Source of the DNA: a virus
Virus record (IMG/VR): IMGVR_UViG_3300004770_000100
Location: 1-25,879 of that record
Direction: 5' to 3' (one strand)
DNA: 25,879 nt
In this document: piece by piece, positions 2,479 through 24,569 of the stretch
Position numbering within the stretch: position 1 is the first letter of the stretch
How the letters are laid out: each line of letters starts with the position of its first letter
Made by a program: the position numbers and the translations under genes
The notes under the pieces: generated by a model
What the model was told of the DNA's origin: nothing
Database searches by the model: none
Seen by the model: only the letters and a program-made list of their open reading frames with translations

Positions 2479-5400
2479 TTAATTAGTTGTATTAACGTTT
2501 GACGGCAAAGCAATAGCTTGTAAACTATTGACAACAGGAACTGCCGTTTTATCTGTGGTAGTTAATACAACTTTAATCGCAAATTGACTAAATGAATTGT
2601 ATTTTTGACCATTCAAACTTGTGTATGATATAAAACCTTGATCAACACCTGTAGTTCCTGGAGCAAAAGTGTAATCATTAATGTCTGTTCTAAATTGTGA
2701 ATAAAGATTGTCTGAACTACTTGTTTTAGTCATTAATTGCCAAATACCACTCTCAAATGTTTGAGTATCATTGCGACTTAAAATCTTGTAGTAAACATTA
2801 ATATCCGTATTAACAGGTCGATATGCACTTATGGTCACATTCAAGTCACCAGAATCGTTTCCAGGTGCCAATACAACTTTCTTAGTAACGTACTTAGTGA
2901 GTGCAGGTCCACCAGAGGATGATGTTTCTCCTGTAATGTTTGCGGTTGCACCAGTACCAGAACCGGATGAAATATTGATGGTTGGTGTGGTAATATAACC
3001 TTGACCACCCGAAGTAATATAAATCGAAGTAACATTGCCATTTACCACATTAGCAGCAGCATATGCTTGTACTCCATTTTTACCTGTAGGAGCAGAAATC
3101 GTTACGACTGTATTTGCAATGTTATAAAATGCACCAGGAGTAACCAAGTTAATTAGGTTATTTGATAATGAGCAATTACCAATGGTCCAGTTAATAGCAA
3201 AGGTTGATAATCCAGCATCTGACAAAACTGGACTTACATACGGATCAGCACTAGACAATACGGCAGTTAAAATAAATGAAGCGTTAGCATTAGCATTAAG
3301 AACACGCTCGCCATTGCCATCATTCAAATAAAGGTTATCAGCCATCGATGTTCCATATTTTCCTGGAGTAACACCACTAAAGGCAGACATTGAACCTGAA
3401 GCCAGTGTTGCACTATATTGATATGAAATACCAGCAGTTGTTGGAACAAAATCAGTCGTTGTAATATTAAAAGCATCAACTAAGGCAGATGTTGATGATA
3501 TTGTCGTTACTGTATTTGGAACATTATTTGCACCATTGAAATAATTTAATGACTGTTCTACTAAAGAACGCCTTGGTAATTTAGCAGGAACAATAAATGC
3601 AATTGTAGGTGTTGTAGAAATATTGAAAACACAGCAATCAGCAACAAACATTAATCCTTGATTTTGGTCTGCTGTCCAAGTTTGTGAATTTTGTGATAAA
3701 AACAATGCACCAACATAAGGAGCTGAACCAATTTTAGTTACAACCGATGGTGTAGCATCAGTAGGTTTATTTTTAACTGAAGATGATACTGCTATATCTC
3801 CTGATGAAGCTGTCCACAAATTATAATCACTTGAATTTGTTTTAACAATAAACGCATACAAAGTATTAGGTTGAATGTATACAGGAGCATTAAATTCAAA
3901 TTGAGTATATGCTGTTGAATCTAAAAATTGTGGAGTTCCTGATACCTTAACCATATCTGGAGTCATAGTAACAATAGAGTGATCTAATGTTTGCCCATTT
4001 GGATAACCATTAAGTGTACCAACAATTGATACTGTAATTGGAGAATTTCCAGTAGGTTTTGTTTTAAAGAACAATTTAATGGCATTTAAAAATAAACCAT
4101 TTGGATAATTAGCAGAAGATATTATAAATGTTTGCGCAACAGGATCGTAAGGACTATATGTTGTTACAACATTAGTTGATGATTGTTGACTTGTTTGTGT
4201 GAATGTATTTTTTGCGCCAGCAGGAGAAGCACCAAAGTCAACAGACTGTGAAGTTGTTTGTAAACCTTCAGCATAAAATGTTGCTTGAGCAAATGTTGTC
4301 CAACTTGCCGGATTAAAATTACTACCGTTATCTAATTGTAATACTCTTTGGCCTGTATGGAAAATGCCAGCAGGAATATTAAAAATGCCGTAGAACGAAC
4401 CATATTCATCAGTATTCATATTACCAATAGAATATACAATATTTGTATCAACATCTAAGGCAGGAGATATTGTTGCGGTTTTTGTTGAACCCACATATCC
4501 TGTAATTATTGCTGAAGTTCCAATCGCAGCAGAATCACCGGTACAGAAATAAATTGTATTGCCTGTATAGTAATTATCGGTTGCAGAAGCTAAAGGTGAA
4601 AGTTGAACAGTAGTTGTACCATTACCTCCAACTACACGAGCACCAAAATGACTTTGACTTACAAATAAACCACTAGCACTAGATGAAACATAATTTCCAT
4701 TTTGGTCAAAATAACCATTTTGTATAGTTTCTCCAACTGAATTAGTACCCGAATATGAAGTTGAGTAAGGATCAGAAGCAACATACAATCTTGTGTTGGT
4801 TGTTCCTGGATAATTCTGAACACCAATAATTCGTGCGGTACCTGTAAACACACCGGCGATACGATAACCAATAATATCATTTACATTAAAGATACCAGTA
4901 ACACCAGACAATTCAACCACGTTAGTTTTACGAATATATTGTTGAATATTTTGATTATCAAAAGAAGCTTCTAATTGTGTATTAAACAATAAATTTTGTG
5001 CAGATACAATTATTTCTTGTGACTGAATGTATGGTAAAACCGAAATGTCTGTGATATAACCATTATTCAATGCGTATGTGTTTCCAAGACTATCATAGTT
5101 ACCCATGATATTAGTTTGTTGTTGTACTTGACTAGAATAGGTTGTAGTAGCGGTATAACCAACAGCAGAACCAAATGGACTTTGTACATTAGGATTACCG
5201 TGATTAACAACTGATAGGCTTGAAGAATATGATGTTCCTGAAATTGTTTGCCAATCTCCTGCCGATAATACATTGACTACGGCTGGATTGGATTGAAACA
5301 CTTGTAAATTAGGATCAGTAATCAATAGACCAGGAGCTTGTGTGTTGTCAACCCAATTATCTACGTTAGGTGTTAATGATAACTCACCTTGTTCGGTCAC

Positions 5401-23357: not shown

Positions 23358-23795
23358 ATGGCATATTCAGGACGATTTTTACCCACCAACCCACACAAAT
23401 ATGTAGGAGACCACAAAAACATCATTTATAGAAGTTCTTGGGAATGTCGTTTTATGCACAAATTTGATATATCAGATTGGGTTATTAGTTGGGCCAGTGA
23501 AGAATTGGTAATTCCATACATTTCACCGGTTGATGGTAAATGGCATAGATATTTTGTTGATTTTGTTATAAAGGTTAAAGATAAAGATGGAAAATTGAAA
23601 ACTTGGATGATAGAAGTTAAACCAAAAAAACAAACAAAAGCACCAGAAGTTAAGAAACGAATCACTAAACAATATATCACGGAAGTTACAACTTGGGGTG
23701 TAAATCAAGCAAAATGGAAAGCGGCTACTGAATATTGTTTAGATCGTGGTTGGGAATTTGTTATATTTACAGAAGATCATTTACCTACAATTTAA
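23358..23795 (+). CDS. gp4: Head completion nuclease gp4
   Basis: A 145-aa protein (T4 gp4, also called gp50, is about 150 aa). The N-terminus 'MAYSGRFLPTNPHKYVGD' and 'IIYRSSWECRFMHKFD' (residues 22-37), then 'WASEELVIPYISPVDGKWHR' (45-64), closely match the T4 gp4 pattern. A PD-(D/E)xK nuclease-like core is visible: E29, D68 in 'YFVDFVIKV', and E86-V-K88 in 'WMIEVKPKKQ'. gp4 finishes the packaged head before tail joining, and its nuclease fold may trim DNA at the portal. It is transcribed away from the baseplate operon. Its stop is at 23793-23795; an antisense remnant ends at the same place. The start has no strong ribosome site. Confidence 0.93.
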   Translation: MAYSGRFLPTNPHKYVGDHKNIIYRSSWECRFMHKFDISDWVISWASEELVIPYISPVDGKWHRYFVDFVIKVKDKDGKLKTWMIEVKPKKQTKAPEVKKRITKQYITEVTTWGVNQAKWKAATEYCLDRGWEFVIFTEDHLPTI

Positions 23796-23893
23796 GAATT
23801 CCACCTTTTTAGTGCACTTTCTTTCATTTTTTGTTTAGTTTCTTCGCTATGCCTCGGAAAGAGATTTATTGGTTTTATCAAACTGATCTGGTG
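23792..23893 (-). pseudogene. NUMOD3-like homing endonuclease remnant (antisense)
   Basis: Reading the minus strand gives 33 open codons with no good start, ending at TAA (23794-23792). They contain 'PRHSEETKQKMKESALKRW', which matches the NUMOD3 DNA-binding motif (of the form 'K/RHSEETKxKxxxS') found in GIY-YIG and HNH homing endonucleases. No nuclease domain remains. A second frame at 23912-23847 encodes a 21-aa peptide (MITFTITPDQFDKTNKSLSEA) with a nearby AAGG; removing one base would join it to the NUMOD3 stretch, so the frame looks broken. This is probably the eroded tail of a homing gene. A chance or functional short peptide is the alternative. Confidence 0.5.
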
Positions 23894-23942
23894 TTATTGT
23901 GAAAGTAATCATACCTTTTATATATCTCAACTAAATACTCAC
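23796..23942. other. 147-base gap between gp4 and gp2-like genes
   Basis: This is the longest gap in the window. It contains the antisense NUMOD3-like remnant and, at its right end, a late-promoter-like ACTAAATA. I see no stable hairpin followed by a T-run on the plus strand, so no terminator for gp4 is called. Confidence 0.7.
23930..23937 (+). promoter_or_regulatory. Possible late promoter giving a leaderless transcript
   Basis: ACTAAATA differs from TATAAATA at two places. Exactly 5 bases separate it from the ATG at 23943. With T4 late spacing (octamer at about -13 to -6) the first transcribed base would be the A of the start codon. There is no Shine-Dalgarno before this ATG, which agrees with a leaderless start but does not prove it. 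Confidence 0.35.
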
Positions 23943-24569
23943 ATGGCATATCAATCTAAACTTACACAACTTGCATTGCAGCGATCCGCTACGGATCAAG
24001 CTATTCTTTCCCGTGATTCAATGAAATGGATGAAAGAAAAGATCGAGGAGATTCGTAATCCGTCATCTATTCCTAGGGGTATTGCTCAGGAAGCATTTAG
24101 AAAAGATAAACGATTTGTTTTAGGTCGTTTATATTGTTTTTATTACGATCCACTCGGCAAAGCCGAAATGGATTATTATGATCGTTTCCCTATGGTTCTG
24201 GCATTGGAGAAGTATAATGATGGATTTTTAGGGTTAAACCTTCATTACTTACCATATAAGTACAGACTGGCATTCCTGAGCAAACTTATGGATTACACCG
24301 TTAGGAACGATGATAATGATGTAATGAAAGTCCGTATCACTTATGATATTTTGAACGCCTCCAAGCGTTTTAAAGAGTTTCGGCCATGTATTAAGCGATA
24401 CTTGACCAGTCAAATTAAGTCAAAAGTACTGGCAATTGAGCCAAGTGAATGGGAAATTGCTTCATTCTTACCAATTCACCAGTTTAAAGGTGCTAAAGCA
24501 TCGGAAGTATGGAAAGATTCGATTAACGAGATTAAAGATGCCAATAAAACTTTTGGTTCAATATCTTAA
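23943..24569 (+). CDS. gp2-like: gp2-like DNA end protector
   Basis: A 208-aa protein. Its core 'YYDRFPMVLALEKYNDGFLG' then 'LNLHYLPYKYRLAFLSKLMD' (residues 78-117), followed by 'RITYDILNASKRFKEFRPCI' with 'KRYLTSQIKSKV' (131-162) and 'EPSEWEIASFLP' (166-177), is a family I know from marine T4-like phages, where it is usually annotated as the DNA end protector. In T4, gp2 binds the ends of packaged DNA, shields them from host RecBCD and is needed for head-tail joining. Its location next to gp4 matches T4, where genes 2 and 4 are adjacent. I see no clear similarity to T4 gp2 by eye. The N-terminal 40 residues are helical and basic. There is no ribosome site before the ATG. Confidence 0.65.
   Translation: MAYQSKLTQLALQRSATDQAILSRDSMKWMKEKIEEIRNPSSIPRGIAQEAFRKDKRFVLGRLYCFYYDPLGKAEMDYYDRFPMVLALEKYNDGFLGLNLHYLPYKYRLAFLSKLMDYTVRNDDNDVMKVRITYDILNASKRFKEFRPCIKRYLTSQIKSKVLAIEPSEWEIASFLPIHQFKGAKASEVWKDSINEIKDANKTFGSIS

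Follow-up and report, generated by a model that had tools for sequence, protein, structure and literature searches.

A probable pseudogene of a nuclease-less NUMOD3 gene between the gp4 and gp2-like genes of an uncultured T4-like phage

Introduction

The closest described parallels to the locus reported here are the seg and mob genes of phage T4, which are inserted between essential virion genes; segD, for example, occupies the antisense strand between capsid genes 23 and 24, and segG is found in T4 in the region of gene 32 (PMC2988022). The leaders of I-TevI, segB and mobE are hairpin-regulated and combine a late promoter with a hairpin near the ribosome binding site, whereas the hairpin of seg43 from Aeromonas phage 25 is placed upstream of that site and leaves it uncovered. 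I-TevI is in addition an autorepressor, a role that it performs through DNA binding (PMC2988022).

Here, we describe an antisense NUMOD3 remnant between two virion genes of an uncultured T4-like phage, found in a stretch of 25,879 nucleotides (IMG/VR record IMGVR_UViG_3300004770_000100, positions 1 to 25,879; hereafter the window). Like the seg and mob genes, it is an insertion between essential virion genes of a T4-type phage and, like segD, it is antisense, with a late-type promoter in some relatives. Unlike the seg and mob genes, its intact relatives lack GIY-YIG and HNH domains, and the window copy is dead.

Results

The remnant lies in the 147-base gap (23796-23942) between genes that had been named gp4 and gp2-like from sequence alone, names that profile searches bear out (Table 1); the gp19 tail tube gene was also identified in the window by PHROG profile search. 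Minus-strand positions 23792-23881 translate to MIKPINLFPRHSEETKQKMKESALKRWNS followed by a stop codon (23792-23794), which overlaps the gp4 stop (23793-23795) as originally described, and 23847-23912 translate to MITFTITPDQFDKTNKSLSEA and a stop, one frame off from the first.

Table 1. Features of the gp4/gp2 locus in the window
Feature	Position	Strand	Basis
Left neighbour: gp4-like protein of head completion/closure with a TnsA-like nuclease fold	23358..23795	+	phrog_218 E=6e-59, PF08722 E=2e-25
3′ remnant, encoding the final NUMOD3 unit and the C-terminus (HSEETKQKMKESALKRWNS, then stop)	23792..23851	-	NUMOD3 matches; DNA homology to L004 and L018
5′ remnant, the opening 21 codons of the antisense NUMOD3 gene (MITFTITPDQFDKTNKSLSEA)	23847..23912	-	DNA homology to L003 and L004; protein homology to L003/L004/L343
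Deletion junction, frame shifted by one	23851..23854	-	Two collinear BLAST blocks, gap in subject only
TATATAAA, at the position of the late-promoter consensus TATAAATA of L003	23917..23924	-	Alignment, consensus only
Probable late promoter (CTAAATA) of the gp2-like gene, beside the gp2 start	23931..23937	+	Sequence comparison
gp2-like DNA end protector (right neighbour)	23943..24569	+	phrog_429 E=8e-48

The original prediction took the antisense peptide for a NUMOD3 motif, and the profile search that it called for gave a match to Pfam NUMOD3 (PF07460) with E=0.0028 and 18.0 bits, just below the curated cut-off of 20.4 and covering half of the motif. The remnant also matched phrog_314 (homing endonuclease; E=0.006), and a six-frame search found it to be the sole NUMOD3 match in the whole window (E=7.9e-4). 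A repeat HMM trained only on the repeats of relatives scored it at 29.8 bits, against 4.2 bits for the next frame of the window and 15.8 bits for the best of 300 windows simulated with first-order Markov models of the window. The chance-peptide explanation is thereby rejected, and 23792-23851 encodes a genuine NUMOD3 unit. Pfam finds no nuclease domain in the remnant.

The two frames derive from the ends of one gene, and the proposed frame break is real: the 21-residue frame is the start of the same gene that supplies the NUMOD3 peptide, and its product resembles the conserved start of the L003, L004 and L343 proteins. At the DNA level, the 5′ block matches the start of the intact L003 gene over 84 nt (76% identity; E=7e-13) and L004 over 50 nt (also 76%), and the 3′ block matches 21/21 nt of an L003 repeat, 29/32 nt of the last L004 repeat and 37/47 nt of the last L018 repeat. 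These blocks fall at 14-96 then 274-294 of L003 and at 62-111 then 402-433 of L004, so that a middle section of ~170 bp relative to L003, or ~270 bp relative to L004, is missing from the window. Just past the junction, a premature TAG ends the 5′ remnant. The sequence TATATAAA is probably the decayed promoter of the lost gene, judging from its alignment, and either window frame could in principle still yield a short peptide.

Two further contigs are identical to the window across 4.9 and 5.5 kb, junction included, and an assembly artefact is rejected since three metagenome assemblies carry the identical allele. A scan located the exact 3′ end only in those two contigs, by which a conserved non-coding element is also rejected; conservation of the same short sequence as non-coding DNA, which had been proposed as a refutation, was not seen outside this population. 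The homologous gene of L006/L007 carries an independent frame-shifting internal deletion relative to L004, so the repeat array has been lost repeatedly, and the sequences point to a possible 7-nt microhomology (TTTTTCT) at its breakpoints. An intact allele with near-identical flanks was not found among relatives fetched by gp4 and gp2 or by family-profile and protein searches. The distant family-profile search and protein searches with L008 and L343 brought up no intact copy that was closer, their matches being mostly ordinary GIY-YIG and HNH genes that bear NUMOD3, and tblastn against sequenced phages gave zero matches.

Relatives were collected by gp4 and by gp2, and the gp4-gp2 gap was then measured. 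The site is empty in about 90 distinct relatives, in which the two genes are ~20-50 bp apart and the gp2 promoter CTAAATA adjoins the gp4 stop or overlaps with it. The spacing is 151 in the window and 260-500 in L003, L004/L005, L006/L007, L008/L010, L016 and L018, where an antisense gene fills the gap; further carriers at this site are L017/L289/L326/L340-L342, L343 and L327/L331. The antisense gene is thus present in eight lineages other than that of the window (L003, L004, L008, L016, L017/L289, L018, L343 and L327). An insert that separates two conserved genes in some phages and is missing from the site in others, as here, is the pattern of a free-standing homing endonuclease gene. In L016, L018 and L343, the CTAAATA of gp2 seems to be missing on the promoter side of the insert, and gp2 may depend there on read-through. 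In two more distant contigs, a sense thermonuclease-like gene lies between gp4 and the gp2-like gene (L132 2275-2718 and L133 1200-1655).

The intact genes at gp4/gp2, which belong to related uncultured T4-like phages, encode proteins of 88-141 aa, each with a short N-terminal domain (e.g., MNIYILTQEQFNKTNKALSEYFGVEYTYI) followed by one to four NUMOD3 units that score 31-60 bits with Pfam, over the cut-off of 20.4. In 21 intact nuclease-less proteins, Pfam recognized NUMOD3 and not a single nuclease domain. Estimates of dN/dS were ~0.33 (L343/L018), 0.27 (L343/L004) and 0.16 (L280/L293), with synonymous sites near saturation in several other pairs, and from these values the nuclease-less genes are judged to be, or to have recently been, under purifying selection. 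Because the intact genes lack GIY-YIG and HNH domains and are under such selection, the absence of a nuclease is inherited rather than a product of decay. The original statement that the remnant has no nuclease domain thus holds as description, but it reports a property of the family, and the idea that the window copy itself lost such a domain is rejected. Likewise, a search of the same gap in relatives for a full-length GIY-YIG or HNH gene, as first suggested, does uncover an intact NUMOD3 gene, but one in which Pfam detects no nuclease domain.

The family profile matches structures of the DNA-binding domain of I-TevI (1I3J and 1T2T; E=0.0013), with which the NUMOD3-type helix region aligns. 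Unlike I-TevI, the family has one to four NUMOD3 units, no recognized catalytic domain and a different N-terminal domain. AlphaFold predicts for an intact protein a confident beta-alpha-beta head (residues 2-38) followed by separate helices (mean pLDDT 79), and the low pTM of 0.27 is as would be expected for an elongated protein.

Some of the relatives share a leader with true homing endonuclease genes. It consists of a TATAAATA late promoter, a hairpin and a Shine-Dalgarno sequence, with CTCTAACATTGTAAAGGAATGYCAGC before the start, and is common to L016, L018 and an HNH gene of L011. The latter (L011 2237-2800, minus strand) sits antisense in the gp2-gp19 gap and encodes an HNH homing endonuclease with NUMOD3. 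A scan for the leader pattern found at least 120 stretches in viral contigs but a single match in prokaryote genomes totalling 257 billion bases. The hairpin is formed in 96% of pair cells over 46 leader sequences, and it covaries strongly: double-sided changes number 135, whereas shuffles gave 41 and slid versions no more than 13. Among the matches listed, 66 non-redundant ORFs behind the leader include 21 with GIY-YIG, 3 with HNH, 2 with HNH_3 and 31 with NUMOD3, and 17 leader ORFs appear by reading to have no recognizable nuclease domain. Loci with leader and cargo span L217-L336 (e.g., L245, L251, L240 and L270). Gene names at these sites (gp59, gp32, phoH and uvsW) were assigned by reading the sequences and not by profile search; so named, gp59/gp32 and phoH are the sites of many leader-bearing genes. 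Related gp59/gp32 flanks enclose GIY-YIG cargo in L251, HNH cargo in L240 and nuclease-less cargo in L270 and L300, and beside phoH the cargo is of GIY-YIG type in L249 and nuclease-less in L247.

At gp4/gp2 itself, a covariance model places the leader in L016, L018 and L341/L342 and does not detect it in the window, L003, L004, L008 or L343. The leader in five loci gave no Rfam match, and blastn of the leader against sequenced phages gave none. As in I-TevI, segB and mobE, a late promoter is joined to a hairpin near the ribosome binding site, and the nearest case found is that of seg43, in which the hairpin is likewise upstream of an uncovered site (PMC2988022). Unlike any of those leaders, a single conserved and covarying leader here serves genes of GIY-YIG, HNH and nuclease-less type at several loci, although this multi-site set does not include the window copy. 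A literature search, which covered few subscription journals, found no report of a common leader or of nuclease-less homing genes. The viral contig L251, which bears one of the leader cassettes, also encodes a permuted betaproteobacteria-type tmRNA (3717-4076, minus strand; tag ANDEKFALAA), which hints at a betaproteobacterial host for that phage.

Over the last 150 nt of gp4, compared among 98 distinct genes, the four nearest to that of the window (81-85% identical) all belong to insert carriers, and the best non-carrier reaches 77%. The gp2 genes of those four carriers are only ~51-54% identical to that of the window, and the best gp2 matches to the window (90%) have empty sites. Insert and gp4 thus tend to travel together, and co-conversion of gp4 with the insert is suggested by this pattern. 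Identity along gp4 toward the insert rises no more steeply than in non-carriers, and the linkage could instead come from shared gp4 ancestry.

Discussion

We conclude that the sequence at 23792-23912 is very probably a pseudogene, comprising the two ends of a free-standing antisense nuclease-less NUMOD3 gene fused by a frame-breaking deletion. The gene was inserted antisense between gp4 and gp2, and an internal deletion joined its two ends and broke the frame, leaving the gene dead in this phage population. The original prediction of a homing-gene scar survives in that relatives have a longer antisense NUMOD3 gene in exactly this gap, of which both ends persist in the window. Pfam finds no GIY-YIG or HNH domain in the intact relatives, however, and the remnant is better described as the scar of a nuclease-less NUMOD3 gene of homing-cassette type than as that of a homing endonuclease. 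Its intact product was most likely an elongated DNA-binding protein resembling the DNA-binding half of I-TevI. Such a gene appears to occupy slots that are also used by homing endonuclease cassettes, and it may have spread by recombination with neighbouring sequence or by means of a nuclease supplied in trans.

The leader that some relatives share with true homing endonuclease genes suggests that the mobile cassettes are interchangeable. A broader reading, which we advance tentatively and consider somewhat less probable than its negation, is that uncultured T4-like phages share a common mobile socket with swapped cargo, and that the nuclease-less genes are functional DNA-binding elements. The socket would comprise a late promoter, the covarying 5′ hairpin and a Shine-Dalgarno sequence reading into M-x-I-Y, and would accept GIY-YIG, HNH or nuclease-less NUMOD3 cargo at gp59/gp32, phoH, gp4/gp2 and other sites. 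The nuclease-less genes would then act as repressors, site blockers or trans-homing passengers rather than being homing endonucleases in decay, and the window would be one such slot after deletion.

Alternatively, the parent may have been a conventional GIY-YIG or HNH homing endonuclease, with the window copy and the nuclease-less relatives as stages of its decay. NUMOD3 arrays normally come after GIY-YIG or HNH domains, and the same leader, even the same site, holds GIY-YIG, HNH or nuclease-less genes, both of which speak for this explanation. We nevertheless regard it as unlikely. In the leader-bearing relatives, the nuclease-less frame opens directly at the start codon of the leader, which argues that the 5′ end is intact and not truncated; moreover, several divergent lineages have in common one N-terminal domain, not a broken nuclease, and that domain is under purifying selection. 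Less probable still is the idea that the N-terminal 40-60 residues form an unrecognized minimal nuclease, which would make the intact genes homing endonucleases of a new catalytic type. The genes do occupy homing-endonuclease sites, some with the leader, but in addition to the missing Pfam nuclease match in all 21 proteins, the predicted beta-alpha-beta fold of ~38 residues found nothing significant in a fold search, and only M1, L18 and K84 are invariant in the alignment, with no invariant acidic, His or Arg set. That the sequence is regulatory DNA without a coding role, or a peptide arising by chance, as its intergenic position beside a late promoter might suggest, can practically be set aside given a score far above those of the 300 simulated windows and a homology with intact genes that is seen to either side of the junction.

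The probable pseudogene belongs to a locus that displays an empty site, an intact gene and two independent decayed forms, and so makes visible one stage in the life of a mobile gene. Although the remnant alone is ordinary, the nuclease-less family and the leader extend what is described for free-standing homing cassettes. They expose a class of homing-type genes without a recognized nuclease, and the leader, which spans homing genes of unrelated catalytic families, offers a sequence handle by which cassettes can be catalogued. The role of nuclease-less homing genes thereby becomes a directly testable question.
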